Origin: Odiellus spinosus
Taxonomy: Eukaryota > Arthropoda > Arachnida > Opiliones > Phalangiidae
Assembly: GCA_963920705.1 (NCBI GenBank)
Contig: OY987225.1
Coordinates: 3,236,501 to 3,300,500 of the forward strand
Direction of reading: 5' to 3'
Length of the DNA: 64,000 nt
Below, piece by piece: positions 13,664 to 54,067 of this stretch (positions are counted from its first letter, which is position 1; each line of letters starts with the position of its first letter). Below the pieces are notes generated by a model that saw only the letters and a list, made by a program, of their open reading frames with translations, did not search any database and was not told where the DNA came from. The position numbers and the translations under genes were made by a program.

Positions 13664-14388
13664 CTACGCAATAGATTCAAAAACTGTGAATGTTCCAATT
13701 GGAACATTCGCAATGGCATTAATCCTGTTCAGATGAAGGTCCGTCTTATTGTGTACCTTCTGATGCTTATTCAAATCACTTTTTTGCTTATAACAGCGTA
13801 GACACTGCTCACATTTGTACGGCCGTTCGCCGGTGTGATTGCGTCGGTGTACGACCAGATTACACTTGAAGGCGGAAGCGAAATCACAGAGATCACACTT
13901 GAAAGGCTTTTCTCCAGTGTGCGTTCGATGATGTTTAGTCAAATCAGTCCTGGCCTTACAAGCGTAGTGGCACAAACTACACTTGTACGGCCGTTTCGTA
14001 GTATTTCCGCATTTATGGGTAGTAAAATTATATTTTTTAGAGCAGGCGTAATCACAACGCTCGCACTTGTATACTTTTCTCAGGGTACATTTTACCTCGC
14101 TCTTCGGTGGAATAATTTGACTAGGACTATAACCATCATCCAACGGTTCCTTCTTAATGGAACATAAACTGTCTCCGTGAATTTTTTGGTGTTTGATGAA
14201 GTTGGTTTTTCTATGAGTAACGTAATTGCACAAACTACACTCGAAGCATGGTAGACTGCCAATTTTTATTTTTGGAATGTCAGTCCGACTACGCACACCA
14301 GTGTGCAGTCCAGCGTGAGACTCAAATTGGTCTTTTAGCATAGTGGAATAGCCACAAAGCTGGCAGTTGTACGACATCATCGTAATTT
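13664..14388 (-). CDS. C2H2 zinc-finger protein, terminal exon
   Basis: The ORF of 238 codons from ATGATGTCGTAC carries six fingers, probably for nuclear DNA binding. Residues 6-26, 48-68, 134-154, 162-182 and 190-210 are C-X2-C-X12-H-X3-H, and residues 106-124 are a variant ending H-X-C. Fingers 4-6 are joined by HTGEKPFKC and HTGERPYKC linkers typical of arrayed fingers. A linker between fingers 2 and 3 contains IKKEP, which fits the SUMO consensus. The frame stays open upstream of the ATG and a good acceptor (TTTCCCATATTAATAG) ends at 14389-14390. So this may be the last exon of a longer transcript, or the ATG may be the true start. The finger-specificity residues look intact. I do not assign an orthologue. 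Confidence 0.8.
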
Positions 14389-21993: not shown

Positions 21994-22544
21994 CTATAAA
22001 ATAAATATTCAAATGTTAAATATATTATATCTTATAGCTAAGTCCGTCAGCCCAAACTGTGAGCTATTTTGGTTTTACTATTTCTATTAAAATTCACACA
22101 CTAAAACTAATCCATTGCCAAAATAATGAATCTTAAGCCTAAGAGGTCTATTTTTGCCAAATAATTGTAACGCTAAGCCTTTTAGATCAGGCTACACTAC
22201 GTTATGCGAGAAGCATTTCACAATTTGGCAAAAGAAAGTTTCTTATGTTTTCAACCCCTCTAATTACGAAAATGCCTGTTGCCAGGTCAAGAACTGGCCG
22301 GAAAACCAGAAAGCAAGATGGCAGCCAATTTTTAAATTTTACATAAATTGAGCGATATTTGGCTTAGAGATGCGGTTTAAATTGTAAACCTTTAAATATC
22401 AGTGACAAAAAAGTGTTCACATTTCCAGATCCAGGGGCGTAACTTAAGTTCTATCAGCAGGAAGTCCCCTCAAAGGGCAGCGTAGGTGCTTGGTGTAATT
22501 AATTATTTCCTAAGCTCAGGCTGTACAGTTTTTTTTCAATGTAT
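21994..22544. other. Intron sequence
   Basis: Lies in the intron upstream of exon 5. No repeat or RNA identified. Confidence 0.4.
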
Positions 22545-23097
22545 TGTACTAAAAAATCACCACTGGTAAAAAGCTTGTATCTCAATAATCCAACTGTCGA
22601 AGTATGTGTTTGGAGGCCTAGCAAGGTATCGCGAGAAACTCACACAGCCAATTATGGTTAATTTGTTCTTGCATGACCAACAAGCAAAATTAAACACTTA
22701 AAATAATGAAACATATGAAAGTTCTTCATCAAATTTAGAAACCTAAAAACAATTAGGTAACACTGTACGGAGTTGGTGATTGCTTACATGAGCAAGTCTT
22801 GAGGCAAAGTTAATATTTTTGAAGCAACCACAGGAACGATTTGCACATTCAGTTTTCGGCTGCAAGTAATGAGATCAGCACATATCTGTGAATTGGCCTC
22901 CAGAATCATCCTTTCTTACATGGATCATTAAGAGGTGGATCCAGAATGCGTGCATTTTTCTAGACATGTCAGCAAAAAAATCTCAAGTTTCTAGAGTCAA
23001 ACTAACAGCCACTATCTCAGAAACACATATTTATGAATACATGTACTTACTTGATAATGGGATCTTTAGGAGTGAAGTTTTAGGGCATAAATCAAAG

Positions 23098-23626
23098 CAG
23101 GGCTCCCAGCGTAGAGCCAAGAAAAAATTATAGCTATTATAGGTTTTAAAAGCCTAAAATATAGGTAATTTATATAGGTCCAAAAATATCAATTTATAGG
23201 ACTTTTTATAGGTTTTTAAGTTTTGAAAATTAGGGGTTTTATAGGTAGGTTTCTCTGACATGTAATGCGATATAGGTTCTATATCCTCTAGACCTGTCCC
23301 TCTGCCTTTCTTTGCCAATCTTTGGCACTACTAGCTACTTGCACTCCTCTCGACAGTCTACCTAACTTCTAAAAAAATAGAGTAATAATTACCAGTGACC
23401 TAGGAGAGGAAACCTTTCTGCCACAGCTTGGTTTTTTGCAATCATTTGCACTTTTTCAAGCAAAAGTATAATTTTTATAGTTCATTCCTTTCGAATTTTA
23501 TCACCGAAGTTGAACAAATTCCCCAAAAAATAGGTATTATAGGTTAAAAAGTGAAATTATAGGTTTTTATAGGATCACTTCAGAATTATAGGTAATTATA
23601 GGTATTATAGGTGGTCTGGGAGCCCT
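23098..23626. mobile_element. hAT-like element with TATAGGT subterminal repeats
   Basis: The ends CAGGGCTCCCAG and CTGGGAGCCCTG are perfectly inverted and fit the CAGGG start of hAT elements. More than ten TATAGG(T) motifs cluster near both ends, as expected for transposase binding sites. It has no ORF. I could not find an 8-bp duplication, so the flanks may have changed since insertion. Confidence 0.7.
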
Positions 23627-23759
23627 GTCATAGGGGAAGTCCCTCATGCTTTATCATCCTGAACCTGCGAATATCTAACCTCATCGCTAGTTGAGACATA
23701 TGATGGCACCTGTAACAAGAGAAGAATAATCCTGTTTAGTCGTAATGACGCTTTAAAAT

Positions 23760-23970
23760 TTAGGTCAATGAAAAAAATAGAGTAAGCACATTGAAAAGTT
23801 GAATGATGAATTTCTCAACTGTGGCAATTCTCTCTTTCTGCAATAGGAGGTATCCAAGTCCAGTGAAAAACTCAGATGTCTGCACATCATGATTCCAAGC
23901 AGCTGGTTTTGTTGCCAGCTTTGATGTGGTGTCCGAACCAGTAACAGCATGAAAAGCCAAGATTCTTTTT
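23760..23970 (-). pseudogene. Decayed transposon-linked ORF, left copy
   Basis: The frame reads MAFHAVTGSDTTSKLATKPA, then KFIIQLFNVL. The HAxTGxDTTS motif recurs, from memory, in uncharacterised proteins linked to transposons in invertebrates. A mirrored, frameshifted copy lies at 24080-24290 on the plus strand (KFIIQHFKVRTLFDWPDF). Confidence 0.45.
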
Positions 23971-24825
23971 GGCTTTTATTCTTTTGCTGAAGGTCTGTCA
24001 AAGACAGAGAAAAGAGCGAAGGAAAGGACATACCCTTTCATCTCATATCTCGATTTTCGACAGATCTTCAGAGAAAGAATATCTTTGCTTTTCATGATGT
24101 CACTGGTTCAGACACCGCAGTGGCAACGATCACAAAACCAACTGCTTGGAATCGCTATGTGGACTACTTGCAGAATTCCCATTGCAGAAAGAAACAATTC
24201 CCAGGGTTGTGAAATTTATCATTCAACATTTCAAAGTACGTACTCTATTTGATTGGCCTGATTTTAAAGCTGTCGTTACGACTAAGCAGGATTAATGTTC
24301 CCTCGTAAAAGAGGTCTCTGCTAGCAACTAGGCTGTTCGGAATAGTGAAGCCTGATAGATTTTCCCCTGCAAGTGACGCCTTAAAACTTAACTTTTGAAT
24401 TACTCCCATTATCGAGTAATTACATGTATTCAGAAATATCTTTGTGATATAGAGGCTGTTAGTGTTGCTCTAGAAACTTGATATTCTTCGCTTAAGTGTG
24501 TCTGGGAAAAAAAATCACACACTAAAGATCAAATTCTTCCCGGTCCAAAAAATCGTAGTGCAAAACAGGATGTGCAAATTTTTCCTGAAATTGCCACAAA
24601 AAAAATGAGCCTTGCCTCAAGATTTGATCATGTAAGCAATCACCTACTCCTTGTTTCAACGTTGCTTTAAGTATTCAATTTTGCTGCATACAAGAATAAA
24701 TATAACATCATAAACATTTACACAAGGTTTGTCCTGGTTTCTTCCAATGCTTCCAAACACATACTTCAACAGTTGAATTATTGAAATACAAGCTTTTTAC
24801 TAGTGGTAATATTTTAGTATTTTAA

Positions 24826-38560: not shown

Positions 38561-38894
38561 TTAAGCGATTAAAGCGAGGCCTGGGAATGTCAATGTATTC
38601 AGTTTTGACAACTTTGAAAGCTAAACTTAAGTAATTTTTCTTAGGTGCTAGCCGATAAGTAACCACCTCTTTATAGTACCGTGGTTTGTTATAGCAGTAA
38701 AAATTTCTATATGAACATAATGAACTAAGTCTATTAATTACTAAGAAAATACATTTTTAGACCTACAAGACTTTAATAAAGAATATTTCACCCAATATAA
38801 AGGATAATTATGAGTATTTTTTAATAATTATTGCGTATTTAGCTAGGGAAATGTTTTACTTCCACAATAGAGGGGACAATCGAAATTTTTTTGG

Positions 38895-39310
38895 TGGGGG
38901 CAATTTAAATGTTTTGAAGGGGGCAATATAAATGTTTTGGAGGGGGCAATATAAATGTTTTGGAGGGGGCAATTTAAATGTTTTGGAGGGGGCAATATAA
39001 ATGTTTTGGAGGGGGCAATTTAAATGTTTTGGAGGGGGCAATTTAAATGTTTTGGAGGGGGCAATTTAAATGTGTTGGAGGGGGCAATTTAAATGTTTTG
39101 GAGGGGGCAATTTAAATGTTTTGGAGGGGGCAATTTAAATGTTTTGGAGGGGGCAATTTAAATGTTTTGGAGGGGGCAATTTAAATGTTTTGGAGGGGGC
39201 AATTTAAATGTTTTGGAGGGGGCAATTTAAATGTTTTGGAGGGGGCAATTTAAATGTTTTGGAGGGGGCAATCAAATTTATTGCCGGGGGCAAGATCAAT
39301 ATTGGAGGGG
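38895..39310. repeat. 23-bp minisatellite, about 18 copies
   Basis: The unit is GGAGGGGGCAATTTAAATGTTTT (23 bp) with early variants CAATATAAAT. One strand is rich in GGGGG runs. The unit is not a multiple of three, so the minus-strand open frame across it only cycles through three frames. Confidence 0.9.
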
Positions 39311-41506
39311 GCAATGCCCCCTGTGCTCCCCCTAGTTGTTACGCCCCTGCGTTTTAGAAATAATTAGGTGATTTTTCCTCATTGGGTAAGCCCGTTTCTT
39401 TGTCTATTTTATGCAAGCATAATGAAATGCAATTACGACGTCTCGCGCAAGGGGGAAGTTTTTGTGATTAATTGTCAAGCTTGGCGCAAGATCAGTTTGA
39501 CAAGGTCCAAATCAGTCAAGAGTACTTCAAGAATCGCGCAATTTTGGAGGTTAGCCAGAGACAGATTTGACAAGAATACAAACTGTCAGTGAATCTGTGT
39601 TAAGCCACAGTTAAAAATTTCATCACTTTTTGTACAATGAACTGCAAGTCCAAGCAAGAATCCATTCAGGTTCCATAAGAATATGGGAGCATAGCTTTAG
39701 CCTCTGGTACCATCCTCCCAAACTTTGTAACAAAAGTTCGTCCGCAATTTTCGCAACATTTGTACGCTTAGATCTTTTTTCGGTCGGCTTGTGACCCCGT
39801 CACATAGTTCCACCCCTAGCCCCTCCAAAATTTTTCGATTTTTGTAATTAATATGTATAATAAGCCTATTTTTTGTTGTATTATGTGTCACTTGCCCTTT
39901 AAAAGAAACTATTTTTACTTAAAAACGGGAAAAATATAAAAACCCCACTCCTTCTTAACAAAGGACCGGATAGCAAAAATTTAGCGAACTTTAAGAAAGC
40001 CCAATGCTAAAGATCCCCTCTAAACAAAGTAAAACTTCGTGTAACCCTATCTCTACAAAACGATACCAATAAACCCCCACTGCCATAACCCCCTCAAGGA
40101 ACTAACGAGATGACATCGACCCTCACGTTCATGGTCACCTCAAATTCCCCAAAACTTTTCCATAAACCCTGGGAAAAAACTCTTGGACAGCGTTTCACTC
40201 ACCATCCCAGCCCGAAGATTCACCACTAACCAAGGCGTAGGCCCATTGGCGCCGAATATGAAGAGAAAACGATGCCCTAAAGATCCCCCCCTCTATCTTC
40301 CATAGAAAATCCAGACCGACCCTGCAGAATACCAAGAAACGAAAGGGATACGTCACGAGGCACGCGGTAGCGGGCTTCGAGAGAGGTGCCCGGATGGCCC
40401 GAACAAGAACCAGAGCGTCCTTTTTTCCATCCCCCCAAAAAACTAACGTACGCAAAGCCACGCCGGGAAAAAGCGAAACTGCAACTGGCGAAGATCCACG
40501 CGCTACGCTTTCCCCCCAACCGAGGCATAAAGGAGAGAAGATGGCGAAAGTAAAATCAGTTCGAAACTTCGACTTGGAGATCTCGAAAGGAACCACTGAT
40601 CACCCCCTAGAAGCCCAGCGCGCTGCGCTGAGGCCGATGATGGAGCCCGCTTAAACTAAGGGTCCGGACTCTGCCATTTTTTTTTATCCGCGATCCTTCG
40701 GGACATAGTCGCTGTCGAAAACTCGCGAAGTAACTTAGAAGAAATCAGTCCCCGCTATAACTTAGAAGATAAAATGAGTCGAAACTCATCTCAATAGTAA
40801 TGAAAAAGAGCCACCGAGGCCACAAAGAACTCCGATTCGCCCTCCAGAATCCGATGATCCCCGCTGACGATATTCAATCCACGAAGGAAAGGAGCCTCCC
40901 CCGCTATATGGCGTCGAAACGGAGAAATCCAGCAAACTAAAAACACAACGACGAAGGACGATAATTACTGAAGTCAAACAAGATCCCCCCTCGAGACCCC
41001 AAGAAACCGGACGACCACTCGTCGGAGCATGTGTGAATACCTACCCGAGAGACCGTGCCGTAACTAATTTCAACGAAGTTGCCACCCCGCAAGCTGTCCG
41101 AGAAATCCCGTCTAACCCCTCAAGGAGAGAGCCAGTGAAACCGATTGGTACAGGAATGGATACGGCTCTACTGTTACGCAACAAAATCCAGCTAATCCGA
41201 GAGAAACGACGGCCCCCGAACCCAACTTTTACGTAAAAACACAGGCAGTGTTGAGTATTTTTTTATTGTTATATTTTGTTTTATCGTTTGACCACTCAGG
41301 GAATTATTCGTGCCCCAAATCTAAATGTCGGCTTGTTGTTGAGATCGAAGTCTAGAAGACCGTAGTATAATTCAACTCCCGTACTTTTTAAGAAAAAGAT
41401 AGAAATCAGAAAAACGTTATCGAGATATAAAGAGAGAGATTAGGATAATCTTTGCTCCCCATTTTAAAGACCCCTTTTTATAGGAGGTGAAATTTAATAT
41501 TAAAAG

Positions 41507-41824
41507 TGTTACCGTGAATTTTGCAAGTTAAATAGATAAACCGACTTTATAATAAACAACATATTTATTAAGTTAAATTATTAAAGTTAAATTACTACAT
41601 AACAATTATGAGAGAGAGAGTGCTTGAGAAAGACTGACTAGTTGAAGAGCTGACAGCTGACTGATTTTAGTGTGTAGAAGTATAGCAGACGACGCCTACC
41701 TTTGACCCCATGACCTTAAGAGAGTACCGCCACCTATCATATCTATTTTTGTGATGGTGTCAAAGGTCAACCTATTATACTTTTATTTTGTGATAGTGTC
41801 AAAGTTCAACCTATTATACTTTCA
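41507..41824 (-). repeat. Copia LTR, 3' copy (318 bp)
   Basis: In element sense it begins TGAAAGTATAATAGG and ends CACGGTAACA. The polypurine tract AAAGAGGGGGAG lies immediately before it (41825-41836). It differs from the other LTR at one site that I noticed (41512 C against 46248 T). Confidence 0.95.
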
Positions 41825-41863
41825 CTCCCCCTCTTTGACAATATCTTTAGAATTTGATAATCT

Positions 41864-44800
41864 TTATAATACGTTTAAATTTAATCTTTTCACACAATTA
41901 TCAAAATTGGTTTTAGATAATAACTTTGTAAAAATATCCGCGACATTCTTATTAGATTGAATATATTTTAAACTAAACATTTCTTCAGTTAATTTATCGC
42001 GAATGAAATGATATTTAATGTCAATGTGTTTTGATCTTTGATTTTCAACGTTATTGTGTGAATAAAAGATTGCGGATTGATTATCACATAAGATCACTGG
42101 TTTCTTAATATTACCCATTTTTAGTTCGTTGATTATCGGCAGGATCCATAACAGTTCTTTTAAGGCTTCAGATATTGCGACGTATTCCGCTTCCATGGTT
42201 GAAAGCGATACAGACTTCTGTTTAACAGATCTCCAAATTATAGGGCAATCTCCAAGAAATAATACGTATCCAGATGTTGACTTTCGAGTATCGCGATCAG
42301 CACCCCAGTCGCTGTCACAATACATTGTAAATTGTAACTCTTCATTTTTGTGGTACGTTACTCCAAGATCTGACGTAGTAAGGACATAACGTAGTAATTG
42401 ACATAGCCTAGTCCAATGTGTATAGCCCGGATTGTTGTTAAATTGAGATAATGCTATTACTGCGAAGAGAATGTCAGGTCTAGTCTTTTGAGCTACAAAT
42501 AATAAGCAGCCGATGAGTTCTCTGTACGGTACGTTTTTCATACGATCTTTATCTTCATCTTTATCCGGACAGTCCATTCTTGATAGGATTGTAGATGATG
42601 GAATCGGTAAGCTTACTGGCTCTTCGGCATTTACATTAAATCGTTCAGCAACTTGTTTGATATAGTTAGTTTGACTCATTTTTAAAGTGCCGTCTGATAA
42701 GAATTTAAATTCCACGCCTAACAATTTCTTTATAGGTCCGAGTCGTTTAACGTCATATTTTGTTGATAGTAGTTGATATATATTTTCCGTGATTTCGTCG
42801 TTCTTAGCTAGTACTATTAGATCATCGACGTAGACGAGGACTATCGCTTTATACGGCATTATATAAATACAATTAGTACCCAATAACTTGTTAAAACCTA
42901 ATTCTTGAAAAGTTTGATCTAGAGCCAAATACCACTGTCGTCCGCTCTGCGGCAAGCCATAAAGTGCTTTGTATAGCTTGATACAAAAGTTCTTCGGGTT
43001 TTTCGTTTCGTAACCAGGTATTTGTTTCATGAAAACAGTCTTTTCTAGATCGCCGTATAGATAGGCATTCTTGATATCCAAATGTTCGTGAACCCAGCCG
43101 AAGGTAAGTATAAATATGGCGAGGAACAGTCTTATTAAAGAAAAATTCACGACTGGAGAGAAACTCTGATCATAATCTTCTCCTTCCACTTGGTTGAAAC
43201 CCTGCGCCACTAGTCGTGCTCTGTAACGTACAATTTCGTCGTTGATGTTCTTCTTTACTTGATATACCCAGCGGCATCCTACTATTTTCTTATCTTCAGG
43301 TTTTGGAACTATTTTAGCGACTCCTCGATGTTTTAACGTTTTAACCTCATCATCCATGGCGCGTTGCCATTCTTCTTTCTGCGGCGATTGGATAGCCTCA
43401 TTATAATTATTCGGGATAATAACTTCGGTATGATACGCTTCGAAAACGTTTAGTATGTCTTCTTGAGTTATACTGCTGATTAACGATGAGGCCAGATTCT
43501 TTTTCGAGAAATCGAAGACTTTCGGGTCTATTGCTAAGTTGTTATCTTGAATATGTTTCGCTAGTGATTTGTAAGATCTCCATAATTTTCCATCTGGATC
43601 CCGATAATATATATCAACTTCTCCAGCTGACGCTCCCTTTTTTCGAATTGGTACTTCACGATGCCAACCTGTAGGTATATCTTGAATACCCTTTTTAGCT
43701 TTCGTTTGAGTTATATCGTTCTTGGACTCTTCTAGGATGACTGAATGTGGTTGGTCCTCTTGTTCATCATCGTCGCTTAACTGTAATCGTTCTTCAGCAG
43801 GAGATTCATTCGCGTTTCGAATAGATATTTTTCTTTGCGGAGTCTTTGGTATTTCCTTTTTCTTAGGAATTATTTCGTCATCTTCTTCTTCGTTCTCTCT
43901 AGGCCAATTCATTAATACTACTTCGTTTTGTGGAAGTTTATACTGTTCTATGCCAAGTTCATTTTCGTTAAACGTTACGTGCTTAGTTTCCTCGACAGTT
44001 CTTTCCTTTGGGAACCATATTCGATAGCCTCTTGTGGTACTTGCGTATCCTACTAGTACACCCAACTTCGCTCTATTCTGGAATTTGTTTCTACGATGTT
44101 GCGGTGGAATATGAGCAAAGGCTAAGCACCCAATTCGTTTCAAATAGTTAGCGCTTGGGGTTCTTTCCATCCAGTATTGAAGTGGAACTCTATCCAAAAG
44201 CGAATGTCTTGATCGATTCTTTAAATGAGCGGCTGTCAATACGAGTTCTGCCCATAACATCTCCGGTAACTTGGTTTCTTCCATGATGGTGCGGACAGTA
44301 TTTAATAAAGTGCGATTTATGCGCTCTGCGACCCCATTCATGGGTGGTGAGTATACATTGGTCCTTTCTAATTTGATACCTTCCGTTTGACAGTAATTAA
44401 TAAACTTGTTGGAGCAATACTCCAAACCGTTATCAGTACGCAGCGCCTTGATTTTCTTTCCTGTTTGTCTCTCTACCTGGGCTTTATAAACTTTGAAACA
44501 ATCAAATGCTTCACTTTTGTGGGCCATAGTTAAGACTCGAATCATCCTGCTCCTATCGTCGATAAACGTGATAAAGTATTTAGCTCCCCCTAGCGAAGCC
44601 ACATTGGACGGTCCCCATACGTCGGAATGTATTAGATCCAATATTTCGGTGCTTCTGATTTGATTATTCTTCTTATACGGATGCCTTGTACTTTTAGATA
44701 ATTTGCACGGGATACATGTTGCTAACGTGTCTCTAAATGGTTCTAGTCCCTGCAACATTTCTTCCTTCGCCATATATTTAAGATCTTCTTGATTGATATG

Positions 44801-46150
44801 CCCCAAACGTGCGTGCCATAATTCTATCCCTTTTAAATTTCTTGTAATATTTGAACTTGACGTTTTATATGATTCCATTCCCGTCGTTTTTTCTTCGTCA
44901 TCTTCCGGTAATTCTTTCATTACTTGAGCATTTACGGTATAAAAATTCTCTCGCGTTAAATGAGCCAGGAAAGCTTTTTCACCATCCGGAAAATAAACTT
45001 GAAAGGTTGAATCATTAAACTTGCCAGTATATTTAGCTTGGTCCATCAAACGTACAGACATCAGATTTCTTCTCATGCCTGGAGCATATATCGTATTTCG
45101 TAAACATATTTGAATCTTCGGTTCGTCTAACATTTGAAGCCAAATATCACCCTGGCCTTCGACTCTCGATTTACCTTCACCCACTGTCGCTTCGGTACTT
45201 AATGGTGTGAAAGTACAAAACCAGTCTCTCTTATTGCAGAAGTGGTGTGTTGCCGCACTGTCCATAATCCAAGTATCGGACGAGGTTTCCGATAACATAG
45301 CTGATGCATAGAAAGCTCCTTTTCTTTGGCCTTTGTCGTTATTCTGTGGTTTTCTTTTGCTATAGCAATTGCTGGCTCGATGTCCCTTGCGTCCACATTT
45401 AAAACACGTTATCGGTTCACCTCTCTCTGAATTCCTTTCCTGAACTTGAGGCTTTTTATCTGTATATTTTGGTGTTCGATTCTCGGATTTCTTTACGTTA
45501 ACTACGAAGGCGTTCGCTGCCTTTTCGTCAGCTTGTCCCATTTGCTTTTGTCGAACTTCCTCAGATAATAAAAGTTTCTTAATCTTTTCAGGAGTAAAAT
45601 CAGCATCCTCTGATTGATACATTTGATAAACGAGAGCATCGTACGATTTAGGTAACGAACCAATTAGTATGTAACAAACATCGTCTTTAATCACAGGACG
45701 TCCGGCATTTTCTAGTTGGCGCTTCACATTATATAATCGTCCAATAAACGCTGCCATTTGTTCACCAGGCTGATAAGTCAACCCATAAAACTCTTTCTGT
45801 AACATCGCTATTCTAGCACGGGATTTCGGTTCGTATGTATTTCGTAAAGTAGCCCAAGCTTCAACTGCTGTTGACGTTTCTTCAATTACGCTACGTAAAT
45901 CTTCCCCAATTGAAGCAGCAATCGTTGCGTATGCTCTTGACTTTCTTAATCTAAACTTTTGTTGTAACTCTTCAGACTCTGTTGATGCTGGTGCGGTTTC
46001 GGTACCCTCAACGATTTCCCAAAGTCCTTTATCTCGTAATATCATTTCTACATCGAATTTCCATTGCTTATAGTTGTCTGACGTTAACTGGATACATTGT
46101 CCATGTAGTTTATATTCACGTTCCGCCATATTAAAAGTCGTTATGTTCAA
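41864..46150 (-). CDS. Copia Gag-Pol polyprotein with methyl-CpG-binding domain
   Basis: This 1,428-aa polyprotein encodes all enzymes for Copia replication. In order: Gag (residues 20-200, NYKQWKFDVEMILRDKGLWE), zinc knuckle C249-X2-C252-X4-H257-X4-C262, protease D297-S-A, integrase zinc-binding H446/H451/C479/C482, integrase core D510-D573-E609 with 35 residues between the last two, then an MBD-like domain at 825-881, reverse transcriptase (D1025, YVDD 1107-1110) and RNase H (D1279, E1320, D1356, final HIDIKYHF region). All catalytic residues are present. The MBD lies in the usually variable linker between integrase and RT. The start may be M1 or M8 (AATATGGCGGAAC). Protease processing presumably releases the parts. 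It is transcribed from its own LTR, antisense to the surrounding Gypsy-type element. Confidence 0.95.
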   Translation of the reverse strand: MNITTFNMAEREYKLHGQCIQLTSDNYKQWKFDVEMILRDKGLWEIVEGTETAPASTESEELQQKFRLRKSRAYATIAASIGEDLRSVIEETSTAVEAWATLRNTYEPKSRARIAMLQKEFYGLTYQPGEQMAAFIGRLYNVKRQLENAGRPVIKDDVCYILIGSLPKSYDALVYQMYQSEDADFTPEKIKKLLLSEEVRQKQMGQADEKAANAFVVNVKKSENRTPKYTDKKPQVQERNSERGEPITCFKCGRKGHRASNCYSKRKPQNNDKGQRKGAFYASAMLSETSSDTWIMDSAATHHFCNKRDWFCTFTPLSTEATVGEGKSRVEGQGDIWLQMLDEPKIQICLRNTIYAPGMRRNLMSVRLMDQAKYTGKFNDSTFQVYFPDGEKAFLAHLTRENFYTVNAQVMKELPEDDEEKTTGMESYKTSSSNITRNLKGIELWHARLGHINQEDLKYMAKEEMLQGLEPFRDTLATCIPCKLSKSTRHPYKKNNQIRSTEILDLIHSDVWGPSNVASLGGAKYFITFIDDRSRMIRVLTMAHKSEAFDCFKVYKAQVERQTGKKIKALRTDNGLEYCSNKFINYCQTEGIKLERTNVYSPPMNGVAERINRTLLNTVRTIMEETKLPEMLWAELVLTAAHLKNRSRHSLLDRVPLQYWMERTPSANYLKRIGCLAFAHIPPQHRRNKFQNRAKLGVLVGYASTTRGYRIWFPKERTVEETKHVTFNENELGIEQYKLPQNEVVLMNWPRENEEEDDEIIPKKKEIPKTPQRKISIRNANESPAEERLQLSDDDEQEDQPHSVILEESKNDITQTKAKKGIQDIPTGWHREVPIRKKGASAGEVDIYYRDPDGKLWRSYKSLAKHIQDNNLAIDPKVFDFSKKNLASSLISSITQEDILNVFEAYHTEVIIPNNYNEAIQSPQKEEWQRAMDDEVKTLKHRGVAKIVPKPEDKKIVGCRWVYQVKKNINDEIVRYRARLVAQGFNQVEGEDYDQSFSPVVNFSLIRLFLAIFILTFGWVHEHLDIKNAYLYGDLEKTVFMKQIPGYETKNPKNFCIKLYKALYGLPQSGRQWYLALDQTFQELGFNKLLGTNCIYIMPYKAIVLVYVDDLIVLAKNDEITENIYQLLSTKYDVKRLGPIKKLLGVEFKFLSDGTLKMSQTNYIKQVAERFNVNAEEPVSLPIPSSTILSRMDCPDKDEDKDRMKNVPYRELIGCLLFVAQKTRPDILFAVIALSQFNNNPGYTHWTRLCQLLRYVLTTSDLGVTYHKNEELQFTMYCDSDWGADRDTRKSTSGYVLFLGDCPIIWRSVKQKSVSLSTMEAEYVAISEALKELLWILPIINELKMGNIKKPVILCDNQSAIFYSHNNVENQRSKHIDIKYHFIRDKLTEEMFSLKYIQSNKNVADIFTKLLSKTNFDNCVKRLNLNVL

Positions 46151-46224
46151 ACTTCGCTAAGCCTTGTATTCCAGCCTTGCATTAAGTTTCTATTTCGTTT
46201 TCGTTTGGCTTTAAATAAATGCAA

Positions 46225-46241
46225 CCACGCTCTGCTACCAA
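46225..46241 (-). other. Copia primer binding site
   Basis: In element sense TGGTAGCAGAGCGTGGT follows the 5' LTR after two or three bases. Its first 11 bases match the complement of the 3' end of initiator tRNA-Met, the usual Copia primer. The same sequence occurs at the relic at 58.14 kb. Confidence 0.8.
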
Positions 46242-46242
46242 A

Positions 46243-46560
46243 TGTTATCGTGAATTTTGCAAGTTAAATAGATAAACCGACTTTATAATAAACAACATAT
46301 TTATTAAGTTAAATTATTAAAGTTAAATTACTACATAACAATTATGAGAGAGAGAGTGCTTGAGAAAGACTGACTAGTTGAAGAGCTGACAGCTGACTGA
46401 TTTTAGTGTGTAGAAGTATAGCAGACGACGCCTACCTTTGACCCCATGACCTTAAGAGAGTACCGCCACCTATCATATCTATTTTTGTGATGGTGTCAAA
46501 GGTCAACCTATTATACTTTTATTTTGTGATAGTGTCAAAGTTCAACCTATTATACTTTCA
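46243..46560 (-). repeat. Copia LTR, 5' copy (318 bp)
   Basis: Partner of 41507-41824. It contains the promoter for the polyprotein. The motif GCAGACGAC (46421-46429) occurs here and elsewhere in unrelated elements. Confidence 0.95.
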
Positions 46561-47151
46561 AAAAGTAAATAGATATGGATATATCGTAATTTTGGAAACC
46601 CCTCTAGAAATCGAAAGTAAAAATCTTAGGCACTGTCCGTGCCAAATTCCTCGTATATATATATTTAAAAACTTAACGTTGGACTCCCTCTTACGAATAA
46701 TCAAAGGGCAAGTCTCCTATATATTTTTTATAAGCACCTTCCGTGCGACCAACTCCGTGAGATAACGGGTTGTAGCGTCCCTCGAGTATATTAAGTATTA
46801 TCGTTTTTCCCCCCCTAGTATTTTAAAGTGTTATATTTTTGAAAGTGTTATTACCAATGTGCCTTACCATGAATAAAAGAGTGTTATTTTGATTGACCAA
46901 TTATGAGAAACCATACGTGAAACGAATCTTTTTCCCTCTTCTTCCCACGTGATTAAACTCCTCACACAATTTATCCCAACCCCCAAAACACTTTTTTTGT
47001 GTAAGCTTTTCTCGTTTTTCCCCGTGTTGGTGGCTCTTCGAACATTTTTCCCAAAACCAGCGTCTTTTAACCAAATTCGCGGGAAAAAGTTCGAACGCCG
47101 CTCGCCAGGCGGAAACGCTCCGGCGAGGGAAGAGAAAACCCTTATATAAAA

Positions 47152-47169
47152 TGGCGCAGTCGGCAGGAT
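47152..47169 (+). other. Primer binding site of the Gypsy-type element
   Basis: TGGCGCAGTCGGCAGGAT begins five bases after the LTR. It closely matches the tRNA-Ser-type site known from Drosophila 17.6 and 297. Confidence 0.8.
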
Positions 47170-47635
47170 TCGTGTAGAAAGGACTGTAATTGGTTGCTCA
47201 ATCACTCTCGTATTCGCGGTTGATCCCCAACAGATTTCCAGTGTGTTAGACTACCCCTTTGAAGAAAAAAAAAAGACGGAGAAGAATTTTTTTTTTTCCC
47301 TCTCCCTCTTTTTTCTTCCGAACGGCACATTGTTAGAGATCGGTAAAGCAAAACTTTTTTTTGCCGATCTATTTTTATTTTTGTATTTATTGTTATTGAT
47401 TGTTGAACTTGGGTTCTGAATGATTAGTTTCAAATTGATAGCGTTATTTTTCACGTTTTATACCGTTTTTCTATATAACCGCCTCCATTACGTCGTTAGG
47501 ATAGAGAACCCGAAGGTAGACATTTTACCACCCCCCCTAGTTTCTCATTTAACATTTTTAGAAAAACCAACCCCTGATACTAACCCCCTAGTGATACATT
47601 GAACCACCCCCACGTTTGTACCTAGACCCAAAACT
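47170..47635 (+). other. Leader of the Gypsy-type element
   Basis: An untranslated leader with A/T and pyrimidine tracts precedes the ATG at 47636. No gag is seen. Confidence 0.5.
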
Positions 47636-48013
47636 ATGGAGAATTTAGTCAGGTTTTTGGAGACGTCAGAGGGCAGGGTCGCCATAATGAGTGTAGGAGC
47701 AACAATGTGGTTAGCCCTTGCTTTATGGATATGTTGGAATACCAGATTATTTTGGTTTTGGATCCCCCTCAGAATCAGTACAGGAATCATACGATATTTG
47801 ATTACATTAATTCAGGAAAAGGGAGGAAATGAGCAGAATCGCCTGTCGAAGACTGACTTGATGTTTTTAACCGTTCTCTTAAGGGAAAACCAGATAACGC
47901 TAGTCCAACAATTAGAAGCTTTGAGACGACCCCTCCAGAAAGAAAGCACGAGAGAAACCCCACAGTTAGAAATAGAAACAGGGACCGTATATAGAATAGA
48001 AGAGAAATTAGAA
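47636..48013 (+). CDS. Membrane-protein ORF of the retroelement, 5' part
   Basis: From ATG GAG AAT, 126 codons reach the palindrome boundary; a stop falls just inside it at 48017. Two hydrophobic segments (about residues 15-35, MWLALALWICW, and 38-60, LFWFWIPLRI) predict membrane insertion. A hydrophilic tail with QLEALRRPLQKES follows. It has no similarity that I recognise to Gag, Pol or Env. The ORF continues at 50232 once the 2.2-kb palindrome is set aside, and the two parts are phase-compatible. Function unknown. Confidence 0.6.
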
Positions 48014-50230
48014 GGGTAAATCTTTCCCAAATCGCCCAGTGGCTCCCACGGCACCGATTTAGATTTTAATTAAACTTTAACCACTTGAAATATAGACCTT
48101 TTGATTGGGAAAGCCAAGTTTTTAGCTCAAAAAATTTAGTATTTTGAAAGATACAATTTTTTGAAAAAACCTTGTAGAGAGTCGACTAGTTTTAACTCCA
48201 AAATTGTGGCGACTTTGAGCGAAGATATCTAAAGATGAGTTAAAGTGACACACTTCCAATTTTTTCTCTATTTTATATTAGTGGTAGAGACCACTATGCG
48301 CCTGCGCAAACGTTCGAAAATTGTTCCCTTTATTTTATAAAATTCGTTAAAGGTGTCGTAAAATCTCGCAAAACCGGTAAATAGAATATCTTCAGCAGTC
48401 TCTCAACCATCGAAAAAACATTCTGGCTTGGGAAAAAAACTACCCTTATAGGGTAAAATGAATCGTAGGAGAACGAAAAAAATGCAAAAAGAATCCTGGG
48501 AACTGTACTTTCGAAGCTAAGGGGCCTCGAATTTGGCGTTTTTTGAAAAATCTCATAAACATGGTTCCTAATTGTAGCTTTTTTGGCAAGGTAGGACTCT
48601 AAAATTCAAATTAATTTTAATACGATCGGAAAGCAGAGGGTTCAGTCTATATCATATCAAAATTTCATTTTGTGTTTCCAACTCCTTCGTGTTCAAACGT
48701 TAAGAAGAAATCGACAGAATCTGAAGTTTAAATTAATAGTTCTTATGCATTAAACATACAGGGTGTTTCGCAAATGGTGGTAAGACCGAGCAACAGTGGG
48801 TTCTATGGGTCATTTTAAGACGAAAAGGTTCTATGACGTTTTGTCGTACGGGGCTCCGATTAAAAGTTACGAAATTAATCATGTGCGGATGACCCCTTAA
48901 CGTTCATTAATAAACGTATATACACAATGATAAAATACGCTTAACTATTTAGCTGGGTTTTTACATGCCTCATTTTCATGGTCGCTTATTAGCTAGATTT
49001 TTACACGCTGAACGCGCGTATCTAAACGAAACATATTTCACGTGCACTTCAGGGCTTCAAGCGCCGGTGAATTAAGAGCGAAAAAATTACGCTATTATAA
49101 GCACGCGCTTGATAAAAAATTGATTTTAGCATAGAGCATACGTTTATTAATGTACATTAAGGGGTCATCCGCACATGATTCATTTCATAACTCTTAAACG
49201 GCGCCCCGTACGACAAAACGTCATAGAACATTTTCGTCTTGAAATGACCCATAGAACCCACAGTAGCTCGGTCTTACCACCATTTTCGAAACACCCTGTA
49301 TGTTAAATGCATAAGAACTATTAATTTAAATAGAGATCGGGGTTTGGACAAAATAATCCACAACTATCAGTTAATCAGTTAATCATAAAAAAATAATCGG
49401 AAAATTATTCGCGATTACATTGGATTTATCATAGACTTTCCTCGAAAATTTTTAAGTTATGAATAAAGATAAAATAATCAGAAATTTTCTTGTCCAAACC
49501 CCGATCTCTAAATTTAAACTTCAGATTCTGTCAATTTCTTCTTAACGTTTGAACACAAATGAGTTGGAAACACAAAATGAAATTTTGATATGTTATAGAC
49601 TGAAACCACTGCTTTCAGATGATATTAAGATTATTTTGTATTTTAGTGTCCTACCTTGCCAAAAAAGCTACAATTAGGAACCATGTTTTTGAGATTTTTC
49701 AAAAAACGCAAACTTCGAGGCCCCTTAGCTTCGAAAGTACAATTCCCTTGGCATTTTTTCATTTTTTTCGTTCTTCTACGGTTCATTTTACCCTATAAGG
49801 GTAGTTTTTTTCCCAAGCCAGAATGTTTTTTCGATGGTTGAGAGACTGCTGAAGATATTCTATTTACCGGTTTTGCGAGATTTTACGACACCTTTAACGA
49901 ATTTTATAAAATAAAGGGAACAATTTTCGAACGTTTGCGAAGGCGCATAGTGGTCTCTACCAATAATATAAACTAGAGAAAAAATTGGGAGTGTGTCACT
50001 TTAACCCATCTTTAGATATCTTCGCTCAAAGTCGCCACAATTTTGGAGTTAAAACTAGTCGACTCTCTACAAGGTTTTTTCAAAAAATTGTATCTTTCAA
50101 AATACTAAATTTTTTGAGCTAAAAACTTGGCTTTCCCAATCAAAAGGTCTATATTTCAAGTGGTTAAAGTTTAATTAAAATCTAAATCGGTGCCGTGGGA
50201 GCCACTGGGCGATTTGGGAAAGATTTACCC
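48014..50230. mobile_element. 2.2-kb palindromic element in the retroelement ORF
   Basis: GGGTAAATCTTTCCCAAATC at 48014 faces its complement ending 50230. Arms of about 0.9 kb (48014-48918 and about 49139-50230, excluding the MITE at 49331-49510) flank a 220-bp spacer. There is no ORF of its own. The arms contain the module with CCCACAGTAGCTCGGTC that is also at 34.74 kb. I could not define a target-site duplication. Confidence 0.85.
49331..49510. mobile_element. 180-bp hAT MITE in the palindrome's right arm
   Basis: TAGAGATCGGGGTTTGGACA faces TGTCCAAACCCCGATCTCTA. The perfect 8-bp duplication AATTTAAA lies at 49323-49330 and 49511-49518. The left arm of the host palindrome shows the empty site (TTTAAATTAATAGTTC). 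This is the youngest layer of the nest by position. Confidence 0.95.
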
Positions 50231-50231
50231 C

Positions 50232-51581
50232 CAAGCGAGTGCTAGAAATAATCAAAAGGAGCTAGAAACCCACTTACGCATTGCCGAAACAGTTCGGGAT
50301 GCCCCTTCCCCCCTAGCAATCCAGTTAAGCCAAGCGGTACAGAAAATAGATCCCCTCACTTCAATCCCCCACGTAGAATCGACCAGCGAGGTTAAATTAT
50401 TCGAGAAGGTAGAATATTTAGCACCAGAAAGAAAAGAACATTCATTGAAATTATTTAACTATTCCCCCCAGGTATTAAGTAGTAAACCAGAGCGTACCCA
50501 CGTGGATAGCCATGTGATAGATATAGAAGATATTCCACCTATTGCATGCCCCCCGTATATAATCTACCCCGCTAAAGAAGCAACCATTGAGAGCCACGTG
50601 TCCGTTAGAAAGGATAAAGACAGGTTTGAGATCCCCCGAGGTAAACAGGTAGAGAAGCCAGAGGAAAAGGAATCCCCGCTTCATAGAAACCCCTATGTTA
50701 AGAAAGATTTTGGCCCGGGAGACGTTTACGAATATGTTTTCCCACATCAGATTTCGAATCCCGAGGAGAAACCAGATTCCACCCCGGCAATAGAACAATT
50801 TACAGACCCCCTAGAAACTTCCGCTAGCATACGGGAAGAAATTGAAATAGTTCAGGAAGACATTGAAATAGTTCAGGAAGAAATAGTTCGGGAAGAAATT
50901 AAAATAGATCAGGAAGAAATTAAACTAGAGCCGTTAGAACCCGAAGAAAAACCACCCCGCGAAGTTAAACAAGATAAGTTAGGCCCCCAAATCGAGGCAA
51001 TCGTTTTTCTAGTATACATGTACCTATTATTAGTCCCTTTAATATTTAGATCTGCTCTCAGTATAATATTAAATATATACTATGGTATTACTTATGGTAA
51101 TAAATCTATCAGTAATTTTTTGACAAAATACCCCAGGTTTTACCCCCCATCTTGGATGAAATATCTCCCCCACGTTAAATTAAAGCATATTAGTCCAAAC
51201 AATGTTAAAATTCACCCCGAGATTTGCAATTCCCAGCCGAAAATCAGAATAGAGGAAAGATCGATAAATCTATTAGAGAGATTACCCTCGATTAAGGATC
51301 CCCCCGAATATATGAAACCCGAAATACACCTTGTTTGTTCAATGTATTGGGCCGAGACCCTAGTTCAGATAAAAATAAGAATCCCGAAACCACGTTATCA
51401 AATCCCCAAATTCAGAGAACTTTATCGAATAACGAAACGTCTCAACAACCGGGGTAACGAATTTAGAAATCCTCATAGAGGTAAGGGAGACAATAAGTCC
51501 CCCATGCAAAAACAATGCGCAACGTTCGAACGCGAACGCGGTACAGGTGAAACGAAAAAACCCCCCGATTATAAATTATAA
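50232..51581 (+). CDS. Membrane-protein ORF of the retroelement, 3' part
   Basis: The frame is open from inside the palindrome (an ATG at 50190 belongs to the palindrome end) to TAA at 51581; about 449 codons belong to the retroelement. It is rich in Pro, Glu and Lys. A Glu-rich repeat (EEIEIVQEDIEIVQEEI) precedes one strong hydrophobic stretch (IVFLVYMYLLLVPLIF then SALSIIL), so with the 5' part I count about three membrane segments. The C-terminus is basic (RGKGDNKSP). There are no Cys-His boxes, catalytic motifs or furin-type site that I can see. The ORF is clean apart from the insertion, suggesting selection until recently. Function unknown. Confidence 0.6.
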   Translation, partial: QASARNNQKELETHLRIAETVRDAPSPLAIQLSQAVQKIDPLTSIPHVESTSEVKLFEKVEYLAPERKEHSLKLFNYSPQVLSSKPERTHVDSHVIDIEDIPPIACPPYIIYPAKEATIESHVSVRKDKDRFEIPRGKQVEKPEEKESPLHRNPYVKKDFGPGDVYEYVFPHQISNPEEKPDSTPAIEQFTDPLETSASIREEIEIVQEDIEIVQEEIVREEIKIDQEEIKLEPLEPEEKPPREVKQDKLGPQIEAIVFLVYMYLLLVPLIFRSALSIILNIYYGITYGNKSISNFLTKYPRFYPPSWMKYLPHVKLKHISPNNVKIHPEICNSQPKIRIEERSINLLERLPSIKDPPEYMKPEIHLVCSMYWAETLVQIKIRIPKPRYQIPKFRELYRITKRLNNRGNEFRNPHRGKGDNKSPMQKQCATFERERGTGETKKPPDYKL

Positions 51582-51754
51582 TCAAAAATGACAATGTCCA
51601 GAGAGACGAAAAAAAAAAACTTTTTAAGTGAAAAACATTTTTTTTTTTGTGTGTAAATATATATTTGTGTGCGTGAGTGTTAACCAAGTCGTCAAAAACA
51701 ATTGAAAAACGAACTTATTAAACTCAATCTTTATGGTTCGGGACGAACGCACAA

Positions 51755-51768
51755 GAAAGGGAGGGGAT
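51755..51768 (+). other. Polypurine tract
   Basis: AGAAAGGGAGGGGA directly precedes the 3' LTR, the expected plus-strand primer. Confidence 0.85.
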
Positions 51769-51769
51769 A

Positions 51770-54067
51770 TGTGACCCCGTCACATAGTTCCACCCCTAGC
51801 CCCTCCAAAATTTTTCGATTTTTGTAATTAATATGTATAATAAGCCTATTTTTTGTTGTATTATGTGTCACTTGCCCTTTAAAAGAAACTATTTTTACTT
51901 AAAAACGGGAAAAATATAAAAACCCCACTCCTTCTTAACAAAGGACCGGATAGCAAAAATTTAGCGAACTTTAAGAAAGCCCAATGCTAAAGATCCCCTC
52001 TAAACAAAGTAAAACTTCGTGTAACCCTATCTCTACAAAACGATACCAATAAACCCCCACTGCCATAACCCCCTCAAGGAACTAACGAGATGACATCGAC
52101 CCTCACGTTCATGGTCACCTCAAATTCCCCAAAACTTTTCCATAAACCCTGGGAAAAAACTCTTGGACAGCGTTTCACTCACCATCCCAGCCCGAAGATT
52201 CACCACTAACCAAGGCGTAGGCCCATTGGCGCCGAATATGAAGAGAAAACGATGCCCTAAAGATCCCCCCCTCTATCTTCCATAGAAAATCCAGACCGAC
52301 CCTGCAGAATACCAAGAAACGAAAGGGATACGTCACGAGGCACGCGGTAGCGGGCTTCGAGAGAGGTGCCCGGATGGCCCGAACAAGAACCAGAGCGTCC
52401 TTTTTTCCATCCCCCCAAAAAACTAACGTACGCAAAGCCACGCCGGGAAAAAGCGAAACTGCAACTGGCGAAGATCCACGCGCTACGCTTTCCCCCCAAC
52501 CGAGGCATAAAGGAGAGAAGATGGCGAAAGTAAAATCAGTTCGAAACTTCGACTTGGAGATCTCGAAAGGAACCACTGATCACCCCCTAGAAGCCCAGCG
52601 CGCTGCGCTGAGGCCGATGATGGAGCCCGCTTAAACTAAGGGTCCGGACTCTGCCATTTTTTTTTATCCGCGATCCTTCGGGACATAGTCGCTGTCGAAA
52701 ACTCGCGAAGTAACTTAGAAGAAATCAGTCCCCGCTATAACTTAGAAGATAAAATGAGTCGAAACTCATCTCAATAGTAATGAAAAAGAGCCACCGAGGC
52801 CACAAAGAACTCCGATTCGCCCTCCAGAATCCGATGATCCCCGCTGACGATATTCAATCCACGAAGGAAAGGAGCCTCCCCCGCTATATGGCGTCGAAAC
52901 GGAGAAATCCAGCAAACTAAAAACACAACGACGAAGGACGATAATTACTGAAGTCAAACAAGATCCCCCCTCGAGACCCCAAGAAACCGGACGACCACTC
53001 GTCGGAGCATGTGTGAATACCTACCCGAGAGACCGTGCCGTAACTAATTTCAACGAAGTTGCCACCCCGCAAGCTGTCCGAGAAATCCCGTCTAACCCCT
53101 CAAGGAGAGAGCCAGTGAAACCGATTGGTACAGGAATGGATACGGCTCTACTGTTACGCAACAAAATCCAGCTAATCCGAGAGAAACGACGGCCCCCGAA
53201 CCCAACTTTTACGTAAAAACACAGGCAGTGTTGAGTATTTTTTTATTGTTATATTTTGTTTTATCGTTTGACCACTCAGGGAATTATTCGTGCCCCAAAT
53301 CTAAATGTCGGCTTGTTGTTGAGATCGAAGTCTAGAAGACCGTAGTATAATTCAACTCCCGTACTTTTTAAGAAAAAGATAGAAATCAGAAAAACGTTAT
53401 CGAGATATAAAGAGAGAGATTAGGATAATCTTTGCTCCCCATTTTAAAGACCCCTTTTTATAGGAGGTGAAATTTAATATTAAAAGTAAATAGATATGGA
53501 TATATCGTAATTTTGGAAACCCCTCTAGAAATCGAAAGTAAAAATCTTAGGCACTGTCCGTGCCAAATTCCTCGTATATATATATTTAAAAACTTAACGT
53601 TGGACTCCCTCTTACGAATAATCAAAGGGCAAGTCTCCTATATATTTTTTATAAGCACCTTCCGTGCGACCAACTCCGTGAGATAACGGGTTGTAGCGTC
53701 CCTCGAGTATATTAAGTATTATCGTTTTTCCCCCCCTAGTATTTTAAAGTGTTATATTTTTGAAAGTGTTATTACCAATGTGCCTTACCATGAATAAAAG
53801 AGTGTTATTTTGATTGACCAATTATGAGAAACCATACGTGAAACGAATCTTTTTCCCTCTTCTTCCCACGTGATTAAACTCCTCACACAATTTATCCCAA
53901 CCCCCAAAACACTTTTTTTGTGTAAGCTTTTCTCGTTTTTCCCCGTGTTGGTGGCTCTTCGAACATTTTTCCCAAAACCAGCGTCTTTTAACCAAATTCG
54001 CGGGAAAAAGTTCGAACGCCGCTCGCCAGGCGGAAACGCTCCGGCGAGGGGAGAGAAAACCCTTATA
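51770..54067 (+). repeat. 3' LTR (2,298 bp) of the Gypsy-type element
   Basis: Uninterrupted copy of the LTR and reference for the Copia empty site (53481-53491). Duplication GGCT follows at 54068-54071. Confidence 0.95.

Follow-up and report, generated by a model that had tools for sequence, protein, structure and literature searches.

What is a methyl-CpG-binding domain (MBD) doing inside the polyprotein of a Copia retrotransposon? The question is raised by a stretch of 64,000 nucleotides from Odiellus spinosus (contig OY987225.1, positions 3,236,501 to 3,300,500; hereafter the window), in which a preliminary description had placed such a domain. The element concerned is a complete Copia LTR retrotransposon of 5054 bp, lying on the minus strand at 41507-46560. 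In element orientation its 5' LTR occupies 46243-46560 and its 3' LTR 41507-41824, each 318 bp long, and the two are identical at 317 of 318 positions. Copies of the target-site duplication AAAAG flank the element at 41502-41506 and 46561-46565; the sister LTR of the larger LTR element into which the Copia has inserted holds a single AAAAG. Adjoining the 5' LTR is the primer-binding site TGGTAGCAGAGC (46229-46240, minus strand), which we take to be of the initiator-Met tRNA type, and adjoining the 3' LTR is the polypurine tract GTCAAAGAGGGGGAG (41825-41839, minus strand). With one mismatch between its LTRs and an empty site preserved in the sister LTR, this Copia element is complete and young.

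The interior is a single gag-pol open reading frame of 1428 aa (41864-46150, minus strand), whose residue 1 is TTG and whose first ATG is residue 8, at 46129. On this frame hmmscan places Gag (Retrotran_gag_2; 45542-46051, 115.8 bits), a zinc knuckle (45365-45409, 20.9 bits against a cut-off of 20.8), a gag-pre-integrase domain, the integrase core (rve; 44345-44635, 47.6 bits), the SH3-like domain of the integrase (SH3_retrovirus; 43958-44164, 85.4 bits) and the reverse transcriptase (RVT_2; 42602-43315, 209 bits), all on the minus strand. The order gag, integrase, RVT_2, together with TG...CA LTR ends, a 5-bp target-site duplication, a primer-binding site and a polypurine tract, marks the Copia superfamily.

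The MBD itself lies at 43499-43678 on the minus strand. In a scan of the whole polyprotein, Pfam profile PF01429 matches residues 825-884 with an E-value of 8.9e-11 and 41.7 bits, about twice the cut-off of 21, in a frame with no internal stop; a 117-aa piece scanned alone gives 2.6e-12. Residues 825-881 read IPTGWHREVPIRKKGASAGEVDIYYRDPDGKLWRSYKSLAK...DPKVFDF (43508-43678). Among solved structures MBD2 (2ky8, E 2.1e-10) is the closest in sequence, followed by MBD4 and MeCP2, and the alignment to 2ky8 bears out the gap-free core that had been proposed, with a single 3-residue gap ahead of the C-terminal FDF. As the preliminary description had stated, R836, D846, Y848, R858 and S859 stand opposite R, D, Y, R and S of MBD2, and the position of K174 is occupied by E844; a lysine there is not taken as defining the MBD family. 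The numbering of MBD2 and the methyl-CpG contact roles of the five positions are those we assume for that protein. The flanking domains, SH3_retrovirus at residues 663-731 and RVT_2 at 946-1183, agree with the proposed location between integrase and reverse transcriptase. Single-sequence AlphaFold2 models were poor (pLDDT 44.8 and 57.8), leaving a weak structure model of the MBD, and two pieces of the window scanned against viral contigs returned no relative. Judged by profile and alignment, the window Copia carries a true MBD in an intact polyprotein, after the integrase.

The domain family and the contact residues are common to this MBD and to the animal methyl-CpG readers MBD2/MBD3, MBD4 and MeCP2, but the Copia domain, unlike theirs, belongs to the polyprotein of a mobile element. 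It had been suggested that no MBD-bearing Copia was described. This does not stand, as the title of a 2019 paper reports an arthropod retrotransposon family that captured a functional MBD (de Mendoza, Pflueger & Lister 2019, Genome Res 29:1277-1286, PMC6673714), so the window element appears to be of a kind already reported. That family and the window element are both retrotransposon polyproteins with an in-frame MBD, a likeness drawn from the title. The uptake of a DNA-methylation gene has also been described for DNMT-bearing retrotransposons (de Mendoza et al. 2018, PMC5890265), which carry a writer of methylation where the window Copia carries a reader; in the accessible main text of that paper 'MBD' and 'methyl-CpG' have 0 occurrences.

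Is the domain a peculiarity of one copy? In the 443-Mb genome from which the window comes, PF01429 gave at least 150 scored matches, of 415 candidates, and all scored ones exceeded the cut-off, and 30 of these sit within an open frame no shorter than 1300 aa. When 20 loci around top-ranked matches were inspected (at most two per score value), 19 proved to be Copia polyproteins, the aligned pieces of which are 30-62% identical to that of the window, mostly 40-60%. In a set of 19 MBD-Copia loci of 7 kb, 9 contain a pair of LTRs, one of them with a 5-nt flank match (L036). In a wider set of 59 MBD loci, 39 have an adjoining Copia polyprotein, 10 more carry a Copia-type MBD and 8 a Gypsy-type MBD, as classed with a Gypsy profile built partly from rows that it classed; the remaining two (L021 and L066) grouped with the Gypsy type and appear to be host genes. 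Seen from the side of the reverse transcriptase, at least 45 of 140 RVT_2 matches (the 150 listed minus ten partial rows) have an MBD upstream among the matches listed, and in all 45 listed pairs 130-235 nt (median 175) separate the end of the MBD from the start of the RT. Inspection by eye of 20 RVT_2 loci that lack a listed MBD revealed an MBD-like stretch in 8, and Pfam, applied to 7 of the 8, placed five above the cut-off and one below it and gave no match for one. Because the MBD and RVT_2 figures rest on the matches listed, the counts of MBD-Copias are a lower bound. The segment recurs in other Copias of this genome and is no one-off.

The same division runs through a tree of the reverse transcriptases. 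Drawn from this single genome, with 6 near-identical rows of an initial 48 removed beforehand, the tree has 42 rows, and one branch (support 100/99) parts 31 rows with an MBD from 11 without, the labels being assigned by hand with L094 (no Pfam match) and L098 (below the cut-off) counted as MBD. The split corresponds to one change and appeared in every one of 200 bootstrap trees. Twelve loci were labelled as having no MBD; among them L081, L088 and L090 were checked with Pfam and the others judged by translation. The window row lies 0.85-0.9 changes per column from its third- to fifth-nearest RT rows. The simplest reading of this tree would be that the MBD was captured once by Copia and long retained thereafter. 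The MBD-free Copia relatives of the same genome (L081-L092) are ready controls for studying the domain.

That the match is a chance similarity, or that a host gene was fused to the element through an assembly or pseudogene accident, is vanishingly improbable, since PF01429 scores at twice its cut-off inside one intact frame and a Copia polyprotein adjoins the MBD at 39 of the 59 loci. Chance similarity, host-gene fusion and a one-off insertion were accordingly rejected on the Pfam score, the genome matches, the Copia loci and the RT tree.

In two Copia families of the MBD clade, L094 and L098, the MBD is shortened and degenerate although the stretch that holds it is open; the former has no Pfam match and the latter scores 14.2 bits. 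This could be loss in progress or an altered role, and the presence of decayed MBDs in open stretches indicates that the function of the domain is not indispensable.

We aligned 34 distinct Copia MBDs (10 of 44 rows, near-identical, were removed, and the short loci L061-L080 were left out), which have a median core identity of 42% and a minimum of 23%. R836 is present in 34/34, D846 in 33/34, Y848 in 29/34, R858 in 28/34 and S859 in 33/34. All five occur together in 24 of the 34, and the other 10 lack at least one, in one case solely through a stop at Y848. The five contact columns rank within the 13 best-kept of 60 core columns, with a mean conservation of 93% vs 56% over all 60, and equally conserved random sets of five columns arose 12 times in 100,000.

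Codon comparisons give a more mixed picture. The dN/dS of the MBD is 0.08 for L029/L051, 0.10 for L044/L046 and 0.12 for L041/L049, at dS of 1.5-2.4 and so near saturation; the RT of L029/L051 gives about 0.05. The pairs formed by the window element with L042, by L033 with L038 and by L029 with L048 are saturated, and the other MBD pairs have a dN/dS of 0.24-0.84 or a dS of zero. Judged by these ratios, the MBD is constrained between certain families but not in each of the copies. The values of 0.24-0.84 in several pairs, like the decayed MBDs of L094 and L098, would suit a domain captured by chance and drifting as a passenger. Such a passenger would hardly be retained across a deeply split clade, hold its contact residues within the best-kept columns and show a dN/dS of about 0.1 in three pairs, and we regard this explanation as very unlikely.

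A further alternative concerns what the domain would bind. It may be a general tether to CpG, DNA or protein that lacks methyl selectivity and serves nuclear retention or the recruitment of a host chromatin complex. The column of E844, at the K174 position, varies freely (lysine in 4 of 34 Copia MBDs), and that of R858 holds N, S, K or A in 6 of 34, both of which favour such a tether, as do copies without clear sign of methylation. Mammalian MBD3 is an example of an MBD without methyl selectivity, in which a phenylalanine at the position of Y848 removes the methyl preference; the Copia domains keep a tyrosine there in 29 of 34 rows, which speaks against the tether. So does the 2019 title, where the domain captured in arthropods is termed 'functionally active'. 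On balance we hold the tether without methyl selectivity to be rather unlikely, if the most serious of the alternatives.

Does the host offer methylation to be read? Methylase exons matching PF00145 were found at two places in the genome of the window, which from their translations we presume to be DNMT1 and TRDMT1, and no match to DNMT3 was found among the PF00145 matches listed. In diverged copies of the elements, transitions at CpG amount to 95/4823 (1.97%) vs 323/18317 (1.76%) at other C/G positions, pooled over 13 pair comparisons in which the ratio ranges from 0 to 2.9 by pair, rows are common to several pairs and some alignments extend into flanking DNA. As CpG decay is not clearly raised, the Copia copies do not appear to be heavily methylated in the germ line, and the methylated targets of the MBD, if any, would lie elsewhere in the genome. 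This weakens, as far as such counts allow, the idea of MBD-Copias sensing methylated copies of themselves. The MBD family reported in 2019 reportedly consists of Copia elements, in a centipede with methylated repeats and in a spider with methylated gene bodies, and its captured MBD is said to have been proposed to act in target choice; in the present genome the Copia copies show no clear CpG decay. Local CpG o/e gave no clear sign of host-methylated regions. The lowest value among the 2-kb blocks of the window, 0.42, falls at 22001-24000, where a host gene is possibly methylated in the germ line.

The MBD is not confined to Copia. A second group of elements, of the Ty3/Gypsy type, carries a different, TAM-like one at the C-terminus of the integrase. 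In L104:2-2149 (contig C10) a single frame holds the integrase domains H2C2, at 73 bits, and rve, at 49 bits, and ends in an MBD of 43 bits; L103 with the adjoining L053 (contig C13) has H2C2 at 77 bits, rve at 50 bits and the MBD at 50 bits in a frame of 1655 aa; and L105 with L074 (contig C2) is a decayed third case, in which the integrase was recognised by eye. The integrase stretches of L104 and L103 are 55% identical. The five residues R, D, Y, R and S are kept, by eye, in L053, L104 and L067, and one differs in each of L074 and L069; L067 and L069 were classed as Gypsy by their MBD, the former having a listed upstream integrase match as well.

To what extent the two domains go together was gauged with L104 as query against the genome of the window, scoring the best 150 of 1989 candidates for its integrase and the best 150 of 313 for its MBD. 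Of the 150 integrase matches listed, 84 are followed on their own strand, 265-2480 nt downstream, by an MBD match. Among the matches listed, the pairing is found in 43 of the 50 nearest relatives of the L104 integrase, 34 of the middle 50 and 7 of the 50 farthest. In 31 of the 84 pairs the open frames of the two matches are of equal length and at least 600 aa, a proxy for a shared frame. The 150 listed L104-type MBD matches include none in the 600 nt that precede any of the 140 Copia RTs listed. Among the open-licence literature matches listed, no title or abstract start dealt with an MBD-bearing Gypsy element. The window element extends a kind known from the title of the 2019 report, and the Gypsy group is the newer part.

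The Gypsy MBDs seem to have a different source. The best structure match by sequence is BAZ2 for L053, and MBD2, then BAZ2, for L104. In a tree of the domain with MBD2, BAZ2A and BAZ2B, a branch supported at 99/96 joins seven Gypsy MBDs with three TAM rows (BAZ2A, BAZ2B and the host-like L021), and Copia stands with MBD2 on the opposite side; within this tree, from which L022 and L031 (stops), L060, L093, L094 and L098 (long-branch or degenerate Copias) and the host-like L066 were left out, support is weak both for the Copia group (55/49) and for the Gypsy group (64/72). In another MBD tree, from which the stop-bearing Copia rows L022 and L031 were left out, the Gypsy MBDs do not form one group (2 changes) and two host-like rows fall among them, with the bootstrap unsettled. 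As the Gypsy rows are split there, the Gypsies may have captured the MBD more than once. From these trees a separate origin of the Gypsy and Copia MBDs is likely, though not proven. We find it somewhat probable that within one genome a Copia clade, with an MBD2-type domain between integrase and RT, and diverse Ty3/Gypsy elements, with a TAM (BAZ2)-like domain at the integrase C-terminus, independently took different host readers and so arrived at convergent methylation-reading integrases. If the Gypsy MBD was separately derived, as it appears to have been, the case would be not an isolated curiosity but a strategy used repeatedly.

The seat of the domain has a precedent. The chromodomain reads histone marks. 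In chromoviruses, which are Ty3/Gypsy elements, it sits at the C-terminal end of the integrase (Gao et al. 2008). They have in common with the elements described here an integrase tail that bears a reader of chromatin, but where theirs is a chromodomain, ours is an MBD, placed upstream of RT in Copia. In the MBD-Gypsies the domain comes after the integrase and closes the frame, in the very seat of the chromovirus chromodomain; Pfam found no chromodomain in L103 or L104 (E up to 0.1), and the MBD of L053 and L104 is there instead. The same position in Copia and Gypsy, the different likely source and the kept contact residues favour a use of the MBD by the integrase for target choice.

With this in mind, one may propose a course of events. 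Cleavage of the polyprotein would leave the MBD at the C-terminal end of the integrase, where a charged linker joins it to the SH3-like domain. The integrase-borne MBD would then bind (methyl-)CpG DNA of the host chromatin, and might bias the insertion site of the integration complex as the chromodomain does in chromovirus integrase. We infer retention on the mature integrase, methyl-CpG binding and biased insertion alike, and by analogy steering of integration is a plausible use of the Copia MBD. That the domain stays on the integrase, binds (methyl-)CpG host chromatin and biases insertion in the chromovirus manner is the account that we consider rather likely. In its favour are the sequence matches, the fixed spacing to RT, the RT tree, the kept contact columns, the low dN/dS of three pairs, the host methylase exons and the second case in Gypsy; against it are the Glu at the K174 position, the 10 Copia MBDs lacking a contact residue, the decayed domains of L094 and L098, the saturated or higher dN/dS pairs, CpG decay that is not clearly raised, the weak structure model and the want of a DNMT3 match among those listed. 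Since the MBD lies between integrase and RT, cleavage could also go the other way, as far as domain order tells, and the RT part or a free fragment could then bind methylated copies or host DNA in competition with host MBD repressors, acting on expression. With CpG decay not clearly raised in diverged copies, and with the Gypsy MBD located at the C-terminus of the frame after the integrase, away from RT, we think such a role in expression quite improbable. With a reader of methyl-DNA next to the integrase of a mobile element, the idea that DNA methylation guides target choice can be put directly to the test.

A larger LTR element spans 39790-54067 and hosts the Copia; its left LTR (39790-47146), split by the insertion, matches its right LTR (51770-54067) with one mismatch, so that the two, of about 2.3 kb, differ at 1/2303 aligned positions. 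As the Copia sits in the left LTR and the right LTR keeps the uninterrupted site, with its single AAAAG at 53482-53486, the Copia insertion would be younger than its host element, which appears to be young as well. A PBS-like TGGCGCAGTCGG lies near 47152. The interior of the outer element holds one ORF of at least 130 aa (50190-51581), for which Pfam gave nothing at 0.01, as well as an inverted repeat of 722 bp whose arms (48014-48734 and 49511-50230) match at 96%; the element is possibly non-autonomous. A tandem array with a 23-nt period (38815-39366) adjoins it. Elsewhere in the window, an open frame at 17-1165 consists mostly of a repeated SRSSSPVLL unit, and a C2H2 zinc-finger ORF lies on the minus strand at 13664-14380.
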